Assembly: GCA_001872455.1 (NCBI GenBank)
Contig: MNXJ01000057.1
Coordinates: 124,001 to 188,000, forward strand
Direction: 5' to 3'
DNA: 64,000 nucleotides
DNA from: Anaerolineae bacterium CG2_30_57_67
GTDB taxonomy: Bacteria; Chloroflexota; Anaerolineae; Anaerolineales; Villigracilaceae
Every line of letters starts with the position of its first letter. Position 1 is the first letter of the stretch. The notes under the pieces were generated by a model. The model had not been told where the DNA came from, made no database searches, and was given only the letters and a program-made list of their open reading frames with translations. Made by a program: the position numbers and the translations under genes. This document shows, piece after piece, positions 39,057 to 50,907 of this stretch.

Positions 39057-39689
39057 TTACAACCCGTGCTGAATGGCAATCACCGCCGCCTGGGTACGGT
39101 CGGACACTCCCAGCTTTTCCAGAATTGCGCTGACGTGATTGCGGACCGTGCCTTCGGACAAATGCAGCTGCCCGGCAATCTCGCCGTTGTTGAAGCCTTT
39201 GGCTATCAGGCGCAAAACGTCGAGTTCGCGCCCGGTCAATTTTCCCGTTAAAACCGAGACGGGCTGTGTCTGTTTGCTGGCAATCTGATTGAGCAATTTT
39301 CCGGCGACTGCCGGGTCAACAAACGCTTTTCCGGCCAGCGTGCCGCGAATGGCCTCGATAATTTTTTGGCGCGAGGCGTCTTTGAGCAAATAACCGCAGG
39401 CTCCCGCGCGGATGGCGTCAAACAGCCATTCATCGTCATCGTAGGTGGTCAGTACCAAAATTTTGATGGCCGGAAACTTGGCGTGAATCTCGCGGGTGGC
39501 TTCGATGCCGTTCATCACCGGCATTTTCAAATCCATCAAAATCAAATCTGGCTGTTTTTGGGCGGCCAGTTCCAGCGCCTCGGCGCCGTCCTGCGCCAGA
39601 CCAACCACCTGAAAATCTTTTTCCAGCGTCAGCAGCATTTCCAACCCGTCGCGGATGACGGCCTGGTCGTCACACAGCAGAATTTTCAT
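39057..39689 (-). CDS. NarL/LuxR-family response regulator
   Basis: The 210-residue protein has a receiver domain ([26 protein letters not shown] with the phospho-Asp, [17 protein letters not shown] with the Lys). A LuxR-type helix-turn-helix follows ([43 protein letters not shown]). It overlaps the kinase gene by 4 bases (ATGA). Regulators of this class bind short inverted repeats; a perfect palindrome in the kinase upstream region (41074-41103) is a good candidate target. Confidence 0.96.
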
Positions 39690-41014
39690 AGGGTCAGTGT
39701 CACTTTCGCGCCCTGGCCTTGGGCGCTTGCGACGGTTAATTTTCCGCCCGCCAGTTCGGCGCGCTCGCGCATGCCCACCAGCCCAAAATGTCCTGTTGAT
39801 GGGTCGGATTTCAGGTCAAAACCCTGGCCGTCATCCTGAATGACGAGCGTGGTCTGGCCGTCGCTGGTTAAGCGCAGGCTGAAATTTTTGGCGCGCGCGT
39901 GGCTGACGATGTTTTCGATGGCTTCGATGGCAACCCGGTAGATGGTTTGCTCCACGTCGGGGCTGAGCGCCGGCAGGGGATTTTGCAGGGAAAGATCCAG
40001 ACCGAGCGCATAACGCGCCGCCGCCGATTCCGCCGCCCGCCGCAGAGCAATTTCCAGCCCCAAATCTTCCAGCGCGCTGGCGCGCAGCGCTTTGAGAGCG
40101 CGGCGGGTTTCATCTGTTCCGAGGCGGGTGGCGTCCAGCGATTTTTCGAGAAATTCTCGCGCGCGCGGCGGGTCAATCTCAAAATAGGCTTTGGCGGTTT
40201 CGAGTGAGACGGAAATCGCTGTCAGCGAATGCGCCAGCGTATCGTGCAGTTCGCGCGCCAGCCGGTTGCGCTCGCGGCTGACGGTGAGATGCTCCAGCGT
40301 GGAAGCGTAGTGCGTCAGGTTGGCGTTTGCCTGGCGCAGCGATTCGCGCTGTTCGCGCAGGCGTTTGACCAGCAGGCTGAGAAAGACGCCCACCGCCAGA
40401 AAGCTGATGGTGCGAATGCTGGCAATGAAACCAAAAACGTACACATTGCGCGAGTTGATGGCGCTGAAATAAATCAGCCCCAACTCTAGCGCGGTGGTGC
40501 CTACGCTGAACAGGATGACCTGCGCCAAGTCATATTCCCAGGCGACCAGCGCCAGCGCGACAAACAGAACCGGCAACTGCCGCAGTGCCATGCCCTCCGC
40601 ATTTGCCAGGGGGCCGTTGGGAAAATGCGGCGTGAGAAAGACGTTGATGAAAATGGGCGCGCTGGTGATGGTGAGCAAAAGCAGCGGGTAAAACGCGCGT
40701 CCGAGCCTGACCTGCGCCCCGTCCCAATAGGTCAGCGCCAAAAAGAACAGGGCGGTCAACCCGCTGGCGGCGTAAAACAAATAGACCGGGCGCAGCGGGT
40801 CGCGCGGCGGGAGCGGCGGCAGGTTAATCGGCTGACCCGGCAGCGGAAATTTTTGCCCGGGCGCGGCCTGCAGCAGGGGCGGATTTTGCGTAACGGGCAG
40901 GTTGACTTGCGTGTACAGCACAAAATCCATCAGCGCCATCGCCAGCAAAAAGCCGAGCCAAATCCAGGCGGCGGTGCGGAGAAAACGGGTGGAGTCGTGC
41001 ACGGGCGCTTGCAT
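39686..41014 (-). CDS. NarL-type membrane sensor histidine kinase
   Basis: The 442-residue kinase has TM1 near 15-35, a short extracytoplasmic loop and about six further TM helices to residue ~225 in an intramembrane-sensing layout. A coiled coil, the HisKA_3 dimerisation box RERNRLARELHDTLAHSLTAI with phospho-His, and an HATPase_c domain follow (ENIVSHARA, DDGQGFDL, GHFGLVGMRERAELAGG). This is the DesK/LiaS-like class that often senses membrane or envelope state. The start codon follows TTCGCCC without a Shine-Dalgarno, close behind a TAAGAT. The partner regulator gene overlaps its end. Confidence 0.95.
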   Translation of the reverse strand: MQAPVHDSTRFLRTAAWIWLGFLLAMALMDFVLYTQVNLPVTQNPPLLQAAPGQKFPLPGQPINLPPLPPRDPLRPVYLFYAASGLTALFFLALTYWDGAQVRLGRAFYPLLLLTITSAPIFINVFLTPHFPNGPLANAEGMALRQLPVLFVALALVAWEYDLAQVILFSVGTTALELGLIYFSAINSRNVYVFGFIASIRTISFLAVGVFLSLLVKRLREQRESLRQANANLTHYASTLEHLTVSRERNRLARELHDTLAHSLTAISVSLETAKAYFEIDPPRAREFLEKSLDATRLGTDETRRALKALRASALEDLGLEIALRRAAESAAARYALGLDLSLQNPLPALSPDVEQTIYRVAIEAIENIVSHARAKNFSLRLTSDGQTTLVIQDDGQGFDLKSDPSTGHFGLVGMRERAELAGGKLTVASAQGQGAKVTLTL

Positions 41015-41103: not shown

Positions 41104-41200
41104 AGGCAGGTTTTCACTGTTTTGACGGGTGAATCGTGATGCGCTTCACTCGCCGCGCGCGGCGGGAAAAGATAAGATGGAGAAACGAAAGGAATTCAAA

Positions 41201-43294
41201 ATGACAACAGCCACCTTCCCCCAAAAAACATCCTTTTTGGAAAAGAAACTTTTCCCCGGTCTGACGGTTGCCAGCGTCGTGCTGCTCGGCATCATGGCCT
41301 TCGCGCTTGTTCTCCATCTTTATAACATCCAGGCCATCGGCGACGCGAATGCCTATTACACGGCGGCGGTCAAATCCATGCTGATGTCGTGGCGCAACTT
41401 CTTCTTTGTGGCGGCGGAGCCGGGCGGCTCGGTCACGGTGGATAAACCTCCGCTGGGGTTGTGGATTGAAGCGCTCTTTGCCTACTTTCTCGGCGTGAGC
41501 GGTTTCAGCGTCAGCCTGCCCAATATTTTGGCGGGCGTTTTGGGCCTGCCGCTTTTGTATGGCATGGTCAAAAAACACATGGGCGAACTGGCTGGGCTGG
41601 CCGCCGCGCTGGTGATGGCGGTTACGCCGGTTTTTGTCGCCACCAATCGCAACAACACGATGGACGGCCTGCTGGTTTTCTTTTTGCTGATGGCGGCCTG
41701 GGCCTTCCTGCGCGCCACCGAAACGGGAAAATTGCGCTGGCTGTTGCTGGGCGCGTTCCTTGTTGGGCTGGGCTTCAACATCAAAATGATGCAGGCCTTT
41801 CTGCCGCTGCCCGCTTTTTATGCGCTGTATTTCTTCGGCGCAAAAACCGGCTGGGGACGCAAACTTCTCCATCTCGGCCTGGCCAGCGTTTTACTGCTGG
41901 TCGTTTCGCTGGCGTGGGCGGTTGCGGTGGATTTGACCCCCGCCGATGCGCGCCCGTTCATCGGCTCCAGTGGCGATAATACCGTCATGGGGTTGATGTT
42001 TGGACATAACGGGATGGCCCGGCTGGCAGGCGGAGGCGGCCCCGGCGCGAATCGTCCGCAAAATGGCGAAAACCCACCCGCGCCGGGCGCTGATTCTGCC
42101 GCCGGGCAGGCACCCGCGCCTCAGCCAGGATTCCGCGCCGCGCCGCCCGCCGCCCTGCAGGCTTGCGCCAATTCTACGCCGGGCGCGGCCTGCTCGTTCA
42201 CCGCGCAAAATGGCAGCGCGATTAACGGCGCTTGTATTCTTCCGCCCAACACGACGGCGCTGGCTTGCGCGCCGCAAGGGCAGATTCCGCCCGCTGGCCT
42301 GCGCCCGGCAGACGGCCCCAACGCTCCCGGCGGCGGCACACCGTTCAGCCAGGAAACCGGCGCGCCGGGCGTCTTCCGCTTTTTTACCAGCCCGCTTTCC
42401 CGGCAGATGTCGTGGCTGCTGCCGTTTGCGCTCATCAGCGTTTTGCTGGCGCTGTTTGGCGCGCGCATCAAACTTCCGCTTGAAGCGGGCCTTCACAAGG
42501 CGCTGATTGTGTGGGGCGGCTGGCTGCTGACCTGTGTGGTTTTCTTCAGTATGATTTCGGGCATTTTCCATTCGTACTACGCCATCATGCTGGCGCCCGC
42601 GCTGGGCGCGATGGTTGGGACGGGCTTCGCCTGGCTGTGGGGCATGGATAAAAAATGGGCGGGCGCGGCGCTGGCGCTTTCGGCGGCGCTGACGATTGGG
42701 TTTCAGTATTTTGCCGCCAGCCAGTACAACGAATTTTCGGCCTGGATGCTGGTCAGCGGCGTTTTGCTGGGGCTGGGCAGTCTCGCGCTGATTTTCCAGC
42801 GGCGGCTGGCGTATCTGACGATTTTGGCGGCGATGCTGGTCATTCCGCTCTACTGGACGGTGAAAACGGTGACGGCGGGGGCGGATATTAATTTGCCGAC
42901 GGCCTACACCGGCAGTCAGCAGGCGCGCCCGCAAAACGGCGGCGCGGGCGCAGACACAGCCTTGCTGACGTATCTTTCGGCCAACACGGATGGGGTCAAG
43001 TACCTGGCGGCGGTGCCGTCCTCACAGCAGGGCGCGACGCTGGTGCTGGCGACGGGACGCCCCGTGCTTTACATGGGCGGATTCGGCGGGCAGGACGAGG
43101 TGGTCAGCGCCGCAGATTTATCGGCGCTGGTGGCAAATGGTGAACTGCGCTATGTGCTGTACGGTGAGCGCGGCAATCAAGCCGAAATTACCAATTGGCT
43201 GAAATCGGCCTGCGCGGTGGTGCCGAGTTACAGCCAGATCAGCGCTGGCGGGGGGCCGCAAGGCCAATCCATGACGCTTTATCTGTGCAAATAA
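41201..43294 (+). CDS. GT39-family membrane glycosyltransferase (YkcB-like)
   Basis: The ATG at 41201 (MTTATFPQK) with AAAGGA 7 bases upstream is preferred over earlier in-frame starts. The 697-residue polytopic protein has the ArnT/PMT-type N-terminal region (IGDANAYYTAAVKSML with the catalytic-type Asp, then VTVDKPPLGLWIEA) and about 12 TM helices. Such enzymes move sugars from polyprenyl-phosphate donors to lipids or proteins outside the membrane. Between TM helices, about residues 275-385, is a Gly/Pro/Ala-rich insert with four Cys (CANSTPGAAC, CILPPNTTALAC). A C-terminal extracytoplasmic domain (about 590-697) follows. It is divergent from the two-component operon, which may control it through the palindrome. 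Confidence 0.88.
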   Translation: MTTATFPQKTSFLEKKLFPGLTVASVVLLGIMAFALVLHLYNIQAIGDANAYYTAAVKSMLMSWRNFFFVAAEPGGSVTVDKPPLGLWIEALFAYFLGVSGFSVSLPNILAGVLGLPLLYGMVKKHMGELAGLAAALVMAVTPVFVATNRNNTMDGLLVFFLLMAAWAFLRATETGKLRWLLLGAFLVGLGFNIKMMQAFLPLPAFYALYFFGAKTGWGRKLLHLGLASVLLLVVSLAWAVAVDLTPADARPFIGSSGDNTVMGLMFGHNGMARLAGGGGPGANRPQNGENPPAPGADSAAGQAPAPQPGFRAAPPAALQACANSTPGAACSFTAQNGSAINGACILPPNTTALACAPQGQIPPAGLRPADGPNAPGGGTPFSQETGAPGVFRFFTSPLSRQMSWLLPFALISVLLALFGARIKLPLEAGLHKALIVWGGWLLTCVVFFSMISGIFHSYYAIMLAPALGAMVGTGFAWLWGMDKKWAGAALALSAALTIGFQYFAASQYNEFSAWMLVSGVLLGLGSLALIFQRRLAYLTILAAMLVIPLYWTVKTVTAGADINLPTAYTGSQQARPQNGGAGADTALLTYLSANTDGVKYLAAVPSSQQGATLVLATGRPVLYMGGFGGQDEVVSAADLSALVANGELRYVLYGERGNQAEITNWLKSACAVVPSYSQISAGGGPQGQSMTLYLCK

Positions 43295-43316: not shown

Positions 43317-46130
43317 CTATTTCCAGTTTTTCGCCAGCTCGTTCAACGCCCGATAGTACGGCGCAATGCTGGGGATGTAGTGCGCCTCGTTTTTGCTGTG
43401 CGGCCCCAGCCCCGCTTGCCCCCAGACGACGGCCTGCCCGCCGGGAGCGAAGCGCGCGCTGGTGCCGGGCAGTTTCCGGCTGATTTTTGCTTGCGCGCCC
43501 GAGGCTTGTTGGACCGCCTGCAGCAGCGCCTGCAGCGCCGGGTTGGTGGGGTCGCACGCGACGCCGTTTTCCATCACTGAAAATTTCGCTTCCAGACCGT
43601 TTTCGGCGCAGTAGGCTTCGATTTTCGCCTTCAGGCTCAAAACGTCATCCTGCGGAATGGGGCGGATTTCCACGCCGAGAATGCCCTCGGCGGCGGTGAC
43701 GTTGTACACGCCGGGCGTTCCGACGTGAATGAAGGGAAATTTTGCCTGTGACTGCCAGCCATCCGCCGCGTTGAGAGTGAGATGGGTGGCGAAAATTTCG
43801 CTCAACGCGGCGCGGGCGCTGATCAGTTTTTCGCTCAAATCGCCGCTGCCAGCCACGCCGCTGTGTCCTTTGACGCCGCGCGCTAAAATGTCGAAGCGCA
43901 TCACGCCGCGATTTTCCACACAAACTTCGCCAAAAAGTTCATTGCCTTTTTCACCGGTACGCTCACCGGCAATGAATAAACTTGGCGTGTAGCCGCTTTC
44001 CGCTTGCAGGGCTTTCAGCACAAACGGCGTGCCCCAGGCTTCGGCCTCGCCGTTTTCTTCGTTGCCGACCAGTAGCAGTGAAATGTTGGGGAAAGGCTTA
44101 CCAGCGGCCAGCGCGTCCTTCATCCACACCAGGTAGGTGGCGACGACGGTTTTCATATCTGCCGCGCCGCGCCCGTAGAGGTAATCGCCTTCGATACGCG
44201 GAATGAACTGGCTGTCATCGGGTTCGGGTTCCACCACGTCGAAGTGGCCGGTGAGCAGGATGGGGGAAAGATGGGAGGCTGGAGACGAAAATTTTGCAAA
44301 CACCGCCGGGTATTTGCCGTCAAAATACTTTACTTCCAGGCCGTGACCGCGCAAATAGTCGTAGATGAAGGTTCCGGCGCGGTGAACTTCTTCCAGCCGT
44401 TCGTTGGGGCAGGCGGTGACGCTGGGGATGCGAATCAACTTTTGCGCCAGGTCGAGAATTTCGCTGGTTTTGTCGGGGTAGTTTTCGCTGAGGCTGATGC
44501 CGGAGGCGGCGCGGAAGCGGATGGGCAGGGTGTTGTCTTGGCGGGCGTCTTGCCGCGCTTGCTGTAGCAGGCTGCCCAGTTTTTCAGCGTCGCCGTTCAG
44601 GCTGGCAAATTGCGCGGCGATTTTTTCTGCGTCGGCGCGAACCTGATATTCGCGTTCCAGCGCCAGCTCGCGCAAAACGCTGACCGGGACTTCGTCGTTT
44701 TCGCCCAGTTCCAGGCGCAGGCGGGCGCGGATTTTTTCGGCGGTGTTGGGGCCGCCGCGCGCCATTTCTTCCAGCGGGCCCAGGTCTTGCCACAGGTTGA
44801 GCGCCTCGGCCAGCGGGCGCAGTTCTTTCAGCGTCCAGGCCAAAAATTCGCGCATGGAAATTGGTTTGCCGGTGAGCGGGTTTTCGATGTCGGCGCGCAG
44901 GCCGTGTTGGGCGGCCAGGTGTTCATTGGCGCGGGCGCGCGGAATGTCTTCGCGGTCGTAGCGGAAGGAGCGGGCGAAGATGGGGTCGGCGTAAAAGCGC
45001 AGCAGCAGCAGGTGTTTCAGCGTCAGGTTGGCGATGTCCACCTCCAGCGGGTTGCCGCCGTCGTCGGTGCGGATTTCGACGCGGCCCATCGGCAGGTTGA
45101 TGCGCGCCATCAGGTTTTGCTTTTCGATTTGGCGGGCCATTTCCTCGGCGGGGGCGGCCTCGCCCACCGAGTAGAGGCCGCGGGCGTAGAGTTCGTCCAG
45201 TTGGTCGCCGGTGGTTGAAATCAGCCGTTCGACGGGTTCGGCAAAACTGCGGGCGCGGACGGGAGTCCAGTTGTTGTTGCCAAAGCGCACGCCGCGCCGA
45301 ATTAAGTCGTAGGAAGTTTGCAGGTAGTCGTTGTACGAGCGGTACAGGTCGGGCAGGTCAATTTGGGGCGGGTTGGGAAAGGTGAGATTGCGCACCGAGT
45401 CGTTTTCCGTCAAAATGAGCGCGGCGCGTCCGGCGCGGACCTGTGCCTGCATGGGGGTGCTGGCGCTGGTGGCGATGAACAGGCTGGCAAAGGCGCGCAG
45501 CAGGCGGGTGGCGGTGATGTAGAACTCGGATTTGTACTCGTCAAATTGGTGTTCGCCGCGTTGAGCGGGCGGCAGGTGCATAAAATCCCACGAGAGCAGG
45601 GCTTCGGGCAGCGACAGGTTGATGTGAATTCCGGCGGTGGCCAGCGTTTCGCCGTACAGGTCTACGCAGCGTTCCAGATAGCGGCGTTTGGCAATGCTCC
45701 AGTTGCCGGGGATGCTTTCGTGTTGAATGGCGGTCAGGTGAAGCAGGTTGCCGTGCCAGTAGAAGAGGCGCTCGTCGAATTGTTTTCCGGCGCGGGCCAG
45801 GGCGTTGATCAGCACGGCTTCGAGCAGGCGCGCTTCGTAGGCTGCGCCGCGCGGGCTGAAGTAGGGGCGGGTGGCAAATTCGACCATCCAGTGAAAAACT
45901 TCCAGTTGGGAAAATTTTGCCAGTTCGGGCGGCAGGCACTCGGCGCGCAAGTGGTCCACGAAGGATTGCTGCGCCGGGCCGGCACCCACCGTCAGCAGCG
46001 GGCGGAATTGTTCGTCGAGCAGATTCCATTCCAGTTCGTAACCGTTCAGCCCGCCAGACGGGGTTTGTTTCTCGGTCGTTTCCAGGGCGAGTTTGTATTT
46101 TTCGGCAAACTTTTGCGGGTTGTAGGTCAT
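43317..46130 (-). CDS. Fusion of a GCS2-like carboxylate-amine ligase and an M20 metallopeptidase
   Basis: The 937-residue protein joins two domains. Residues 1-490 resemble the glutamate-cysteine ligase/carboxylate-amine ligase fold: the opening YELEWNLLD with metal-type acids, IHINLSLPEALLSWDF, and MGRVEIRTDDGGNPLEVD. Residues ~550-937 are an M20 peptidase with all expected metal and catalytic positions: LLTGHFDVVEP, YLYGRGAADMK, VGNEENGE, IAGERTGEK, VKGHSGVAGSG and the terminal His in GPHSKNEAHYIPS. A ligase and a hydrolase in one chain could condense one amide and trim another, or cycle an amino-acid conjugate. It overlaps the aminotransferase gene by 4 bases. The N-terminal assignment is by motif only; the M20 part is firm. 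Confidence 0.88.
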   Translation of the reverse strand: MTYNPQKFAEKYKLALETTEKQTPSGGLNGYELEWNLLDEQFRPLLTVGAGPAQQSFVDHLRAECLPPELAKFSQLEVFHWMVEFATRPYFSPRGAAYEARLLEAVLINALARAGKQFDERLFYWHGNLLHLTAIQHESIPGNWSIAKRRYLERCVDLYGETLATAGIHINLSLPEALLSWDFMHLPPAQRGEHQFDEYKSEFYITATRLLRAFASLFIATSASTPMQAQVRAGRAALILTENDSVRNLTFPNPPQIDLPDLYRSYNDYLQTSYDLIRRGVRFGNNNWTPVRARSFAEPVERLISTTGDQLDELYARGLYSVGEAAPAEEMARQIEKQNLMARINLPMGRVEIRTDDGGNPLEVDIANLTLKHLLLLRFYADPIFARSFRYDREDIPRARANEHLAAQHGLRADIENPLTGKPISMREFLAWTLKELRPLAEALNLWQDLGPLEEMARGGPNTAEKIRARLRLELGENDEVPVSVLRELALEREYQVRADAEKIAAQFASLNGDAEKLGSLLQQARQDARQDNTLPIRFRAASGISLSENYPDKTSEILDLAQKLIRIPSVTACPNERLEEVHRAGTFIYDYLRGHGLEVKYFDGKYPAVFAKFSSPASHLSPILLTGHFDVVEPEPDDSQFIPRIEGDYLYGRGAADMKTVVATYLVWMKDALAAGKPFPNISLLLVGNEENGEAEAWGTPFVLKALQAESGYTPSLFIAGERTGEKGNELFGEVCVENRGVMRFDILARGVKGHSGVAGSGDLSEKLISARAALSEIFATHLTLNAADGWQSQAKFPFIHVGTPGVYNVTAAEGILGVEIRPIPQDDVLSLKAKIEAYCAENGLEAKFSVMENGVACDPTNPALQALLQAVQQASGAQAKISRKLPGTSARFAPGGQAVVWGQAGLGPHSKNEAHYIPSIAPYYRALNELAKNWK

Positions 46131-47440
46131 AGGGTTCCTGTTTTCAACGACTCCAGCCCAGCCATCAGCCGTTCAAATGCGCCGCGCGTGCGTTCCAGCG
46201 GGGTGGCGTAGGAGAAGCGAATCCAGTCGTTGCCGAAGGGCGAGAAAAAAGCGCCGGGCACAACCGCTACGCCAAAATTTTCGGCCAGGTAGATGCCGAT
46301 GGGTTCGCTGCTTTGCCAGCCTTTGGCGCGGAGAAATTCGCCAACATTCATAAAGGCGTAGTAGCCTTTGCCAAGAATGTGCTGCAGCCCGCTGGCGGCG
46401 AGCAGTTCTTTCAGTACCACGCGGCTGGCGTTGGTCGGCGCGATGATGGTTTGCGCGGCGGCGGCGTAACCCATTTCATAGGCGGCCATCGCCACGGCCA
46501 GCGAGTAAAACGGCGGGATGACGCTGTGCGAGCCACGGGCGACGATGAACTTAATCACCGCTTCGTCGGCTATCAGGTGACAGTTGCGGATGTTTGACCC
46601 GCCCAGGCTTTTGGTAATCCCGTCCAAAAACATCAGATGTTTGCGCTCTTCGGCGGTAAAGTGGGGCAAAAAGCTATTCAAATCCATTGGGCTTTCGTCG
46701 GTGACGTAGTGATACATCCAGTCGAATAACACAAAAGCGACGCCCGCTTCGAGCGCGGCTTTGGCCAGTATCACTTGCTTTTCGGCGGAAATGGTCTGCC
46801 CGGTGGGATTATCGGGATTGGTGATGATCAGCCCGGCGATTTTTCTGCCGCTGCGGGCGGCGAATTCCACGCTGGCGCGGATTCCTTCCACCGAATAGGC
46901 CCAGCCGTCGGCAGGGTCGCCCGGCGACCAGAGCACATTCGCGCCGATGCCGTACGGCCCCCAGTTGTAGGAAATCCAGGGTACGCGCGAGACGAGAATC
47001 GCGTCTCCCTGGCGGCCATGCCCGAGGGCGAGCATCGCCCCGTAGGCTTTGATCAGCGCGTCTCTGCCGCCGGTGGTGCCGATGACGTTGGCGGGGTCCC
47101 AGCCGCTGGCGGCGTCCAGCTTCCAGTAGGTTTCCACCACGGCTTTGCGGTAGGCCTCCGTGCCGAAGGGCATATCGTAGGCGGTGCCGTGTTCGATTTG
47201 CAATTCGGCGGCGCGCTGCAAAATGGCTTTGGGTACGCCTGGCAGCGAGGCGCCGCCGTCACCTTGCGAGGCGTCAAAAACCGCCGCGGCGGGGTTTTTC
47301 TCCTTGTAGACTTTGAGCGATTTGTTGATGAGAAACATGCGCGAGGGCGGAATCTCCATCAGCGCGCGTAAATGGTCGCTGACAGGAATTAGGTTTTCCT
47401 CGGGGACGGCGAAGACGGGGATGCTGTTGGCAATCTTCAT
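46127..47440 (-). CDS. PLP-dependent aminotransferase, class I/II
   Basis: The ATG at 47440 (MKIANSIPVFAVPEENLIP) with GGAGAA a few bases ahead gives 437 residues; the frame extends upstream but through the leader terminator. Fold-type I features are TTGGRDALIKAYGAML, IITNPDNPTG, FDWMYHYVTD, the PLP-lysine region LDGITKSLGGSNIRN and the carboxylate-binding Arg in WIRFSYATP. It transfers an amino group between an amino acid and a 2-oxo acid; the substrate cannot be read. It is translationally coupled to the ligase-peptidase fusion, so the two probably act on the same compound. An attenuator-type leader precedes it. Confidence 0.92.
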   Translation of the reverse strand: MKIANSIPVFAVPEENLIPVSDHLRALMEIPPSRMFLINKSLKVYKEKNPAAAVFDASQGDGGASLPGVPKAILQRAAELQIEHGTAYDMPFGTEAYRKAVVETYWKLDAASGWDPANVIGTTGGRDALIKAYGAMLALGHGRQGDAILVSRVPWISYNWGPYGIGANVLWSPGDPADGWAYSVEGIRASVEFAARSGRKIAGLIITNPDNPTGQTISAEKQVILAKAALEAGVAFVLFDWMYHYVTDESPMDLNSFLPHFTAEERKHLMFLDGITKSLGGSNIRNCHLIADEAVIKFIVARGSHSVIPPFYSLAVAMAAYEMGYAAAAQTIIAPTNASRVVLKELLAASGLQHILGKGYYAFMNVGEFLRAKGWQSSEPIGIYLAENFGVAVVPGAFFSPFGNDWIRFSYATPLERTRGAFERLMAGLESLKTGTL

Positions 47441-47471: not shown

Positions 47472-47496
47472 AACGCCCCGAGTGTTTCGGGGCGTT
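47472..47496 (-). terminator. Intrinsic terminator in the aminotransferase leader (attenuator)
   Basis: AACGCCCCGA pairs with TCGGGGCGTT (47472-47481 and 47487-47496) over five bases. On the minus strand it is followed by TTTTTCT. It ends about 30 bases before the aminotransferase ATG, inside the 5' leader, where a terminator only makes sense if readthrough is regulated. Confidence 0.8.
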
Positions 47497-47640
47497 GGGT
47501 TTCAAAGGTTGTGCCGCCGTGCGGCAGCAACCGCTTGCGCTCTTCCTGAAGGCCAACGTCCCGCAGTCAGACGGGCGCGGGGAGTAGTGAGGGAATGAGT
47601 GACGGAGGTGCGTTTCATGGCGGGGTTAAAATACCATTGA
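47497..47640 (-). promoter_or_regulatory. Structured leader of the aminotransferase operon, possible riboswitch or leader peptide
   Basis: About 150 bases upstream of the terminator hold several potential stems. One is GTTG(C)TGCCGC/GCGGCACAAC at about 47507-47528. A possible 38-codon leader reading frame begins MKRTSVTHSLTTP and ends just before the terminator. A GGCGGCAC block stands where a T-box core would lie, but the diagnostic TGG is not present. I cannot name the class. No other gene lies in 47441-47770. Confidence 0.4.
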
Positions 47641-47763: not shown

Positions 47764-47778
47764 GTCTTCACTCTTCCT

Positions 47779-47825
47779 GGCGATGAGGCTCGCCCAAACC
47801 GTCTTAACGACTGATAGCCTCTACC
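47779..47825 (+). promoter_or_regulatory. Fluoride riboswitch (crcB motif) aptamer
   Basis: The sequence runs GGCGATGAGGCTCGCCCAAA, then CCGTC/GAC stem bases, then CTGAT and GCCTCTACC. From memory it follows the Thermotoga petrophila fluoride aptamer (GGGCGAUGAGGCCCGCCCAAAC...GGGCUGAUGGCCUCUAC) block by block. This includes the GAUGAGGC segment that pairs with GCCUC in the pseudoknot and the conserved CUGAU. The 3' pseudoknot strand is also the 5' arm of the following terminator, so fluoride binding should prevent termination and switch the MutS-like genes on. Confidence 0.92.
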
Positions 47826-47851
47826 GAAACTCCCAACGGTAGAGGCTTTTT
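47816..47851 (+). terminator. Riboswitch expression-platform terminator
   Basis: AGCCTCTACCG (47816-47826) pairs perfectly with CGGTAGAGGCT (47837-47847) and is followed by TTTTGTTT. The left arm overlaps the aptamer's pseudoknot strand GCCTCTACC, giving mutually exclusive structures. It lies 40 bases before the ATG of the first MutS-like gene. Confidence 0.92.
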
Positions 47852-47890: not shown

Positions 47891-49417
47891 ATGACCTTTT
47901 TCAGCATCCTCTTCGATAACGACGACCTGCCCAAAGAGACCGAAGCAGCGCCCGCCTGCTTTAGCGACCTGAATCTTGACCAGATTGTCAAGGCAGTTAC
48001 GGCGCGCAAGAAGGACTATCGCCTCGCGCCGTTCTTCTATACACCCTTGCGTAGCGCGGAAACCATCCGCTACCGCCACGAGGTGATGCGCGACCTGGAA
48101 AACGAGAGCCTGCTGGCGCATATCGAAACCTTCGCCGAAAAAATGGTCATCGTGGGCCGTTACCTGGGGCTGGTGGAAAAACTGGAATTTCACCACCACA
48201 AACAGGGCTGGTTCCTGGATGCGGCGCTGGTTTATTGCGAGGCAATCGGCTCTCTGGCGGAAAATCTGGCGCAAATCAACCTGACTTCGCGCGGCTTGCT
48301 GGCATTGCGTGAGTACCTGACGCAGTATGTGACCTCGCCCGCCTTCCAATCCCTGACGGCGGAGGCGTGCAAGGTCAAGGAAGGGCTGGCGGGCGTGCGT
48401 TATTCCATCATCATCGAAAGCGGCAAATTCAAGGTGCTGAAATACGAGGACGAACCCGATTACAGCGTGGAAGTGGAAAAAACCTTCGCCAAATTCCAGC
48501 AGGGCGCGGTCAAGGATTATCGCAGCGAGTTGGGAAAAGCCTCGGGCATGAATCACATCGAGGCCAAGATTCTCGAATTCGTCACCCTGCTGTATCCCGA
48601 AGCCTTTGCCGCCCTCGACCGTTTCCGCGCGGGACATACGCAATTTGTGGACGAAGCCCTGCGCACCTTCGACCGCGAAATCCAATTCTACATCGCCTAT
48701 CTGGACGGAATGCGCGACCTGCGGCACAAAGGGCTGATATTCTGTTACCCCGAAGTCGGCGCGAGCAAAGAAGTGTTCGTGCGCGACGGTTTCGACCTGG
48801 CGCTGGCGCAGACGCTGCTTTTTAGCGAAAAGCCCGTCATCTGCAACGACTTCGCGCTGACCAACCCCGAGCGCGTCATGGTCGTCACCGGCCCCAACCA
48901 GGGCGGCAAAACCACCTTCGCCCGCATGTTTGGACAATTGCATTACCTCGCCAGCCTGGGGCTGCCCGTGCCAGGGCGCGCGGCGCGGCTGTTCCTGTGC
49001 GACAACATCTTCACCCACTTCGAGCGCGCCGAAGACATCCGCAACCTGCGCAGCAAATTGCAGGATGACCTGGTGCGCCTGCACGAAATTTTCAGCCGCG
49101 CCACGCCCGACAGCCTGATTATCCTGAACGAGGTTTTTGCCTCCACCAGCCTGAAGGATGCCGTCTTTATGAGCAAAGAAATCATGCGGCGCGCGCTGGA
49201 ACTGGATTTGCCCGGCGTATGGGTGACGTTCATTGACGAACTGGCTTCATTCGGCGAGAAAACCGTCAGCATGGTCAGCGCTATCGTCCCCGAAGACCCC
49301 GCCCGGCGCACGTTCAAAATCGTCCGCCGCCCCGCCGACGGGCTGGCTTACGCTCTTTCGCTAGCTGAAAAACACCGCCTGACCTACGCCCAACTGAAGG
49401 AGCGCATCCGCTTATGA
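47891..49417 (+). CDS. MutS-like ATPase, first of a pair
   Basis: The 508-residue protein has the MutS lever/clamp helical region (about 30-320) and a C-terminal MutS ATPase domain. It shows Walker A TGPNQGGKTTFAR, LARLFLCDNIFTHFERAED, and ILNEVFASTSLKDA in place of the Walker B/dimer loop (LLDEIGRGTST). There is no mismatch-recognition domain and no Phe-X-Glu motif. The usual His of MutS (THFHEL) is replaced: WVTFIDEL. So it may be a structural or regulatory subunit. It is directly behind a fluoride riboswitch and overlaps the second MutS-like gene by 4 bases. Such proteins are probably DNA- or RNA-structure ATPases; the link to fluoride stress is regulatory inference. Confidence 0.92.
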   Translation: MTFFSILFDNDDLPKETEAAPACFSDLNLDQIVKAVTARKKDYRLAPFFYTPLRSAETIRYRHEVMRDLENESLLAHIETFAEKMVIVGRYLGLVEKLEFHHHKQGWFLDAALVYCEAIGSLAENLAQINLTSRGLLALREYLTQYVTSPAFQSLTAEACKVKEGLAGVRYSIIIESGKFKVLKYEDEPDYSVEVEKTFAKFQQGAVKDYRSELGKASGMNHIEAKILEFVTLLYPEAFAALDRFRAGHTQFVDEALRTFDREIQFYIAYLDGMRDLRHKGLIFCYPEVGASKEVFVRDGFDLALAQTLLFSEKPVICNDFALTNPERVMVVTGPNQGGKTTFARMFGQLHYLASLGLPVPGRAARLFLCDNIFTHFERAEDIRNLRSKLQDDLVRLHEIFSRATPDSLIILNEVFASTSLKDAVFMSKEIMRRALELDLPGVWVTFIDELASFGEKTVSMVSAIVPEDPARRTFKIVRRPADGLAYALSLAEKHRLTYAQLKERIRL

Positions 49418-50907
49418 ATGTTTATTTACTGTTCCCCAGCCGGAATGCCGACCCGAAGCAGCCGCTTCCGCCCAACGCAGACGCGCTCATTCAGGACCTG
49501 GAACTGGATACCCTGTTCGAGGCGATGGCGCGCGGCGACGAGTATCTGCGCACGGCGGCGAAGCAGGCGCTGCTCTCCAGCCTCGATTCGCCCGCCGAGA
49601 TTCTCTACCGCCAGGAGATTCTGCGCGACTGCCTGAAGAATCCCGAAGTCGTCCGCCAAATCTACAGCCTGCCGCTGCAAGCCATAGACAGGAAACATCG
49701 GCACTGGATGGGCATTTTCAGCCATTACCCCAGCGGAGTGCTGAGCGGCGCGCTGCAAATGCTGGAAATGTTCGTTGACCTGCTCAAAACCCTGAAGCAA
49801 ATCGCCGATGAACACGGCGCGGCGTTTGAGTCGCGCGGCTTTCGGCGTTTCTTTGCCATGATTCAGCAGGAATTGGATGACGCCTATTTTGTCGAAGTGC
49901 AGGAACATCTGGAGCGGTTGAAGTTTCGCGAGGGCGTGTTGCTCAGCGCCGAACTGGGCATGGGCAACCAAGGCGCGAATTACGTCCTGCGCAAGACCGC
50001 CCACCCGGCGCGCAACTGGATCCAGCGGATTCTCTCACGCAAAGCGTCCGTTTACTCCTACACGCTGCCCATGCGCGACGAACACGGCGCGCGGGCGCTG
50101 GGAGAATTGCGCGACCAGGGCATCAACCTGGTGGCAAATGCGGCGGGGCAATCTGCCGACCACATTGACAGTTTCTTCGCTGCCCTACGGCTGGAACTGG
50201 CGTTTTACCTTGGCTGCATCAACCTGGCGGAGCGGCTGGCAGAATTGGGCGAACTGATTGCCTTCCCCGCGCCTGCCGCCGCCGATGAGCGCGTCCATTC
50301 ATTCACCGGGCTGTACGATGCCTGCCTGTCGCTGACGATGAAACAGAAAGCGGTCGGCAACAGTGTGAACGCCAACGGCAAAGACCTGGTCATCATCACC
50401 GGCGCCAATCAGGGCGGGAAATCCACCCTCCTGCGTAGCATCGGCCTGGCGCAGTTGATGATGCAGTGCGGCATGTTCGTGCCTGCCGAGGCGTTTTCAG
50501 CCAATCTCTGCCGCGGCGTATTCACCCACTACAAACGGGAAGAAGATGCCTCGATGACCAGCGGCAAATTTGACGAGGAACTCAGCCGCATGAGCGCGAT
50601 TGCCGACCTGGTGCGCGCCGACTCGCTGGTTTTGTTCAATGAGTCGTTTGCCGCCACCAACGAACGCGAAGGCTCGGAAATCGCGCGGCAGATTGTCACT
50701 GCCCTGCTGGAGCGGCGCGTCAAGGTCTACTTTGTGACGCATCAATACGAATTGGCCAACGGTTTCCATCAGCGTGGCATGGAAAACGCCCTCTTTCTGC
50801 GCGCCCAGCGTCAGCAAGTGGATGGACGCCGCACCTTCCAATTGCAGGAAGGCGCACCCCTGCCGACCAGTTTCGGCGAAGACCTGTATCGCAAAGTCTT
50901 CGAATAA
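49414..50907 (+). CDS. MutS-like ATPase, second of a pair
   Basis: The 497-residue partner has the same plan: helical core (about 30-320) and a MutS-type ATPase with TGANQGGKSTLLRSIG, CRGVFTHYKREEDASMTSGKFDEELSR, LVLFNESFAATNEREG and the His motif VYFVTHQYELA. Walker B again reads Asn-Glu where classical MutS has Asp-Glu. It retains the His its partner lacks, which suggests an asymmetric heterodimer. No mismatch-binding domain or Smr nuclease domain is present. Its start lies inside the end of the first gene (ATGA), so it also depends on the riboswitch. A strong terminator follows. Confidence 0.93.
   Translation: MNVYLLFPSRNADPKQPLPPNADALIQDLELDTLFEAMARGDEYLRTAAKQALLSSLDSPAEILYRQEILRDCLKNPEVVRQIYSLPLQAIDRKHRHWMGIFSHYPSGVLSGALQMLEMFVDLLKTLKQIADEHGAAFESRGFRRFFAMIQQELDDAYFVEVQEHLERLKFREGVLLSAELGMGNQGANYVLRKTAHPARNWIQRILSRKASVYSYTLPMRDEHGARALGELRDQGINLVANAAGQSADHIDSFFAALRLELAFYLGCINLAERLAELGELIAFPAPAAADERVHSFTGLYDACLSLTMKQKAVGNSVNANGKDLVIITGANQGGKSTLLRSIGLAQLMMQCGMFVPAEAFSANLCRGVFTHYKREEDASMTSGKFDEELSRMSAIADLVRADSLVLFNESFAATNEREGSEIARQIVTALLERRVKVYFVTHQYELANGFHQRGMENALFLRAQRQQVDGRRTFQLQEGAPLPTSFGEDLYRKVFE

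Follow-up and report, generated by a model that had tools for sequence, protein, structure and literature searches.

An apparent amino-acid module in two bacterial phyla: a predicted amide ligase fused to an M20 hydrolase and linked to an aminotransferase

Why should two domains of opposite predicted chemistry toward the amide bond be carried on one bacterial protein? The question is raised by a gene at 43317–46130 (minus strand) of a 64,000-nucleotide stretch (the window) of contig MNXJ01000057.1 from Anaerolineae bacterium CG2_30_57_67. The open reading frame (ORF) starts with ATG and encodes 937 amino acids, in which an amide-bond ligase half and an amide-cleaving M20 half are predicted from sequence. 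Together with an aminotransferase gene, the fusion looks like an undescribed amino-acid pathway conserved in two phyla. The parts all come from known superfamilies. The fusion architecture, the two-gene unit and the attenuator in front of it appear to be new, as no description of them was found in the libraries and papers searched, subscription papers being outside the search.

Architecture and active sites of the fusion protein

A scan of 84,980 species genomes yielded 129 related loci. The 80 best of them were retained, and these include 77 full-length copies (60–83% identity) with 303 near-invariant positions, 180 in the N-terminal half and 123 in the M20 half; the fusion is therefore not a chance joining. 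The N-terminal half is unfused only at contig edges or frameshifts and is otherwise always fused. The fusion, proposed earlier in a sequence-only reading of the window, is thus genuine and old.

The N-terminal half (residues 1–545; 44496–46130, minus strand) consists of a putative ligase core (approximately residues 1–475) and long helices. These form a linker (residues 483–531; 44538–44684, minus strand) that joins both enzyme domains in the predicted models; it appears as two helices (483–510 and 512–531) in the model of the N-terminal half and as a single long helix in the full-length model (pLDDT 84.5, pTM 0.77). The C-terminal half (residues 554–937; 43317–44471, minus strand) comprises an M20 metallo-hydrolase and its dimerisation domain.

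The N-terminal half matched no database family above its cut-off. The gathering score of PF04107 (GCS2) was not reached, with no match for the window protein and weak matches in 2 of 31 members (best E 0.03). PF04262 (GshA, glutamate-cysteine ligase) gave 13.6 bits against a cut-off of 27, and weak matches in 22 of the 31 orthologues (best E 1.7e-4). A profile of the orthologues was compared by hhalign with an alignment of 30 Chloroflexota GCS2 proteins and E. coli YbdK, and the two matched with a probability of 96 and E 3.5e-9. When an AlphaFold model of residues 1–545 (pLDDT 86.7, pTM 0.91) was searched with Foldseek, YbdK and its Salmonella homologue took the top ranks (E 1.9e-9 to 1.1e-8), followed by E. 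coli GshA (E 2.7e-8), Francisella and bifunctional glutathione synthetases (GshAB), PafA and yeast GCL; Dop was one of the weaker matches. The structural match to the GCS2 superfamily, on which the earlier reading had staked the identity of this half, was thus found.

The carboxylate-amine/ammonia ligase superfamily (GS fold) is defined by five features on named strands (Iyer and colleagues, PMC2588565). Their invariance in the fusion was assessed over 65 orthologues. The GhExE (ExE/H) feature is G30-Y-E32-L-E34 on core strand 1 (residues 31–38), with G30, E32 and E34 invariant. The acidic residues of strands 2 and 3 are E77 (strand 74–77) and E84 (strand 82–86), both invariant and spaced identically to D60/E67 of GshA and D53/E60 of YbdK. 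The [HD]x[NH] feature is H169-I-N171 on strand 4 (168–172), with H169 and N171 invariant. The arginines of strand 5 and the preceding loop are R292 and R294 (strand 291–295) and R282, all invariant. The Ex[RK]x2D feature is E352-I-R354-T-D-D357, within VEIRTDD (351–357) on strand 6 (348–355), its last position being D or E in orthologues. All five features are therefore present, and the motifs YELEWNLLD, INLSLPE and VEIRTDD, picked out earlier as kept from the GCS2 fold, hold good. Since the full set is kept, the N-terminal half appears to be built for ATP-dependent amide formation, as expected of a GS-fold carboxylate-amine ligase; the activity is predicted from sequence and model.

Membership of the C-terminal half in the M20 family follows from its Pfam scores and its metal and catalytic residues. 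PF01546 (M20 peptidase) scored 67.4 bits (cut-off 24.6) over residues 625–934, and PF07687 (M20 dimerisation domain) 22.6 bits (cut-off 21). The seven metal and catalytic residues H629, D631, D658, E691, E692, E723 and H911 are invariant in the 65 orthologues, which confirms that the M20 motifs are intact. The DapE equivalogs were missed widely (NF009557, 107.9 against 284 bits; TIGR01246, 73.1 against 361.8), and likewise the ArgE equivalog cut-off. The closest structure is the uncharacterised Desulfovibrio protein 2rb7, with DapE second. This half is probably an intact DapE/ArgE-like hydrolase.

Distribution and linkage with an aminotransferase

The best 80 of the 129 loci come from Anaerolineales (Chloroflexota) and from Holophagaceae (Geothrix) and related Acidobacteriota, with a second acidobacterial clade at approximately 52% identity. 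Among the sampled Chloroflexota genomes the fusion is confined to the family of the window, where 83 of 152 genomes carry it; it was not found in the other Chloroflexota families sampled, nor was any plasmid found with it. The tree places the main acidobacterial copies together in a single well-supported group, apart from those of Chloroflexota.

Overlapping the start of the fusion gene is a gene for a pyridoxal-phosphate (PLP)-dependent class I/II aminotransferase of 437 amino acids (46127–47440, minus strand, ATG at 47440). Its PF00155 score (76.6 bits against a cut-off of 19.7) places it in class I/II, and its PLP- and carboxylate-binding residues N211, D240, Y243, K277, R285 and R408 are invariant. 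The named aminotransferase equivalogs GntC, archaeal AspAT and DapC were not reached (best 76.6 against 415 bits), and the nearest solved structures are aspartate aminotransferases.

The 4-base coupling of the two genes reported earlier is real in the window (ATGA, 46127–46130) but is not conserved: elsewhere the spacing is anything between −4 and about 140 bases, or the two genes are separated by unrelated inserts. The genes lying between the two in some loci were considered as pathway members and rejected as such inserts. The pairing itself recurs across Chloroflexota and Acidobacteriota, with the aminotransferase upstream of the fusion in every locus with enough flank, usually directly adjacent; no further partner gene is conserved across both phyla. 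An apparent three-way fusion of aminotransferase, ligase and M20 domains in locus L187 (genome G669; 1390 amino acids) was traced to a frameshift late in the aminotransferase gene; reading the shifted frame restores the normal end, ETTERALARLWTALQQES*.

In the 152 family genomes, both genes are present in 80, the fusion only in 3, the aminotransferase only in 9 and neither in 60 (Fisher p 1e-28). All three fusion-only genomes have the fusion at a contig edge, so there is no firm case of the fusion alone, and solo aminotransferases do exist at interior contig positions. Therefore, the fusion depends on the aminotransferase and not vice versa. The functional link suggested earlier is supported, but the aminotransferase is not strictly dependent on the fusion. 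Distance matrices of the parts correlate at 0.94–0.96, which is expected for any vertically inherited neighbours and carries little weight.

ArgJ (PF01960) is absent from all 152 family genomes, and arginine is therefore made another way or imported. An explanation of the module by the missing ArgJ was rejected, ArgJ being absent with and without the module. The profile of DapL across the genomes was equally uninformative.

The attenuator and the surroundings of the operon

The Chloroflexota operon begins with a cassette-specific transcription attenuator. In the window, a leader peptide ORF, MKRTSVTHSLTTPRARLTAGRWPSGRAQAVAAARRHNL (47502–47618, minus strand), Thr/Arg-rich, is followed by an intrinsic terminator hairpin of arms 3:4 and a T run (47472–47496, minus strand). 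The hairpin is GC-rich and lies directly before the aminotransferase start codon, and most Chloroflexota copies have a matching one. The antiterminator arm 2, CGGGACGTTGG (47553–47563, minus strand), encodes GRW and pairs with arm 3, CCCAACGCCCCG, at 47488–47499. Leaders of this type, of about 30–45 codons and typically reading MF(S)xxxVDTNNTNRTTRTxxVTGRWYLSGE..., are present at 35 loci with the cassette and at two with a solo aminotransferase. The window copy is diverged, with the Asn run missing.

Substitutions in the first 20 leader codons number 128, 70 and 194 at codon positions 1, 2 and 3, and this third-position excess is a coding signature. All 34 leaders tested form the 1:2, 2:3 and 3:4 hairpins of a ribosome-mediated attenuator, which exclude one another and the last of which is the terminator. 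In each, the full-length leader forms the terminator; the GRW segment alternatively pairs with the Thr/Asn/Arg codons (1:2) or, if the stretch upstream of it is covered, with the terminator's 5′ arm (2:3), through 8–12 pairs. Only 11% of codon-shuffled leaders reach 8 pairs. The leader base and both terminator arms covary, being G/C/G in 25 loci and A/T/A in 6; the exceptions are 2 wobble and 6 unpaired cases. The composition of the stall region is Thr 31%, Asn 19% and Arg 12%, but these codons double as hairpin arm 1. Taken as a whole, the attenuator suggests that the operon is induced when an amino acid, most consistently Thr, runs short; its control probably resembles that of operons for amino-acid supply.

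Just 5′ of the leader ATG, a possible extended −10 element, TGGTATTTT (47628–47636, minus strand), is read from the sequence; relatives have TGGTATCCT. GGTGGTATCCTTGCG..ATG was found at this operon in 9 of 10 genomes scanned and is absent from the window's own genome; a consensus scan of the window for sigma-70 sites found none. Genomes carry essentially a single copy of the module start, the one at this operon, and no wider regulon was found for the promoter/leader motif. Rfam gave no match for the leader, and no known riboswitch or T-box was found at the operon.

Upstream of the aminotransferase in Holophagaceae loci L092, L097, L115 and L117, the hairpin is preceded by shared repeats rich in A and T (e.g. 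ATCAATTATTGAT) and by the element TGGTA/GTTAACCTT. These may represent the operator and promoter of another mode of regulation.

Around the operon, a fluoride riboswitch (RF01734, 42.1 bits; 47770–47830, plus strand) immediately precedes two MutS-domain-V genes (47891–50907, plus strand) that overlap in tandem. The riboswitch was rejected as a regulator of the operon, as it faces the opposite way, toward the MutS-like genes. A crcB-mutS association has been noted previously (PMC2864571), and the two short MutS-like proteins encoded in tandem may merit attention. Downstream of the fusion, a convergent YkcB-like mannosyltransferase gene (41189–43294, plus strand) is followed by a pair encoding a histidine kinase and a LuxR-type response regulator (39057–41014, minus strand), which is not conserved with the module.

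A tentative role for the module, and its relation to known systems

The reading we prefer, tentatively and at a little short of an even chance, is a two-gene amino-acid module, attenuator-controlled in Chloroflexota, in which the ligase amidates and the M20 half hydrolyses the same class of compound around a PLP step. The aminotransferase would act on the amino acid of the pathway. With ATP, the N-terminal half would activate a carboxylate by phosphorylation, most likely the one at the gamma position of glutamate, and then join it to an amino acid through the latter's amine, giving a gamma-glutamyl-type amide. The M20 half would then hydrolyse an amide of this class and free the product; a gamma-glutamyl or N-acyl amino acid, as proposed earlier, may be the compound made or recycled. 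The transient amide would likely serve protection, carriage or release of the amino acid around the PLP step, much as an acyl group gives protection in the Dap and Arg pathways. A scarcity of charged tRNAs for Thr, Asn or Arg (Thr most consistently) would switch the operon on in Chloroflexota through the leader peptide. The domains, intact active sites, conserved linkage and attenuator architecture were computed directly; the catalysis ascribed to each half, the substrates, the sequence of steps and the identity of the sensed amino acid are inferred. In its fullest form, a supply route in which the ligase protects, the aminotransferase completes, the M20 half deprotects and the new attenuator induces on shortage of Thr (with Asn/Arg), the proposal is distinctly doubtful.

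Several findings weigh against the two-gene module as proposed. About half of the family is without it, so it is not core metabolism. Seven aminotransferase-only genomes have the gene at interior contig positions with intact catalytic residues, three of them from the window's own genus, and thus a strictly coupled protect-transaminate-deprotect route is not obligatory. In the same-genus loci L200, L201 and L202 (genomes G088, G090 and G091), the aminotransferase is kept and the fusion and attenuator are both lost. Because arm 1 of the 1:2 hairpin is made up of the leader's Thr/Asn codons, their enrichment may partly reflect RNA pairing and is no proof alone. In Acidobacteriota, the copies have the same kind of hairpin and no obvious leader peptide, and a consensus RNA fold of the upstream region yielded the hairpin only.

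Alternatively, the two halves could build and break down a single conjugate, in the manner of E. coli glutathionylspermidine synthetase/amidase (GspSA), and so set the level of a storage or stress compound, with the aminotransferase supplying a building block. For GspSA, the joining of opposed ligase and amidase domains in one protein is proven (PMC6272389). The ligase half of the present protein is always fused, and an aminotransferase that can occur alone beside a fusion never firmly alone is expected if the former feeds the latter. However, the domains are unrelated to those of GspSA, and attenuation by an amino acid is more in keeping with biosynthetic supply than with storage or stress. 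Such pool control is possible, if unlikely; given the leader-peptide regulation, amino-acid protection and supply is placed ahead of it.

That the N-terminal half has lost ligation, and binds, hydrolyses like Dop or regulates the M20 half in a catabolic or salvage module, is quite improbable. Dop, a hydrolase, has the same fold, and the M20 half has its full catalytic residues; but the N-terminal half keeps every ATP/Mg motif of the ligases and is under no less constraint than the M20 half, with 180 near-invariant positions to the other's 123. It is likewise very doubtful that the aminotransferase is a general aspartate-type enzyme for aspartate-family amino acids, sharing only a promoter with an unrelated fusion, as its nearest structures, its solo copies and the leader residues Thr, Asn and Arg, which all draw on aspartate, would allow, since the linkage is kept across two phyla despite different regulation and inserts between the genes, and no aspartate-aminotransferase family model reaches its cut-off.

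The proposed protection and supply module resembles several known systems in part. The N-terminal half shares with GCS2/YbdK (PF04107) and GshA (PF04262) the fold, the ExE metal motif, the acidic pair with 7-residue spacing, HxN, the Arg fingers and ExRx2D, and with GshA a similar GxHxNxSLP segment. It differs from them in its low identity (12–15% by structural alignment, below the Pfam cut-offs), its extra C-terminal helices and its obligate M20 fusion. The M20 half has all the metal and catalytic residues, the dimerisation domain and the GTS-RF and HxxNE C-terminal motifs of the DapE/ArgE deacylases and 2rb7, but scores far under the equivalog cut-offs and sits behind a ligase.

In the Dap and Arg routes an amide protects the amino acid during transamination. 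Like DapD-DapC-DapE and ArgA-ArgD-ArgE, the module, as predicted from its genes, would set an aminotransferase, an M20 hydrolase and an amide-installing enzyme around a protected amino acid. Here, however, the amide would be installed by a predicted ATP-dependent ligase of the GS fold that shares its chain with the hydrolase, and the aminotransferase is sometimes alone. Published ligase genes beside genes for an amidotransferase-like peptidase or gamma-glutamyl cyclotransferase, interpreted as peptide metabolism, are a similar pairing; that account does not mention an M20 fusion or an aminotransferase.

The fusion, conserved and associated with a single aminotransferase and a single attenuator, offers a workable route toward an unknown metabolite of uncultured Anaerolineales. 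As cultured Geothrix species carry the same pair, substrate and phenotype are testable. E. coli GspSA and trypanosomatid TryS also hold opposed amide synthesis and hydrolysis on one chain, as predicted here. GspSA joins ATP-grasp and CHAP domains with the amidase first, whereas the present fusion joins a GS fold to M20 with the ligase first. If the predicted activities hold, opposed activities can stay on one chain within a pathway, beyond the case of glutathionylspermidine.
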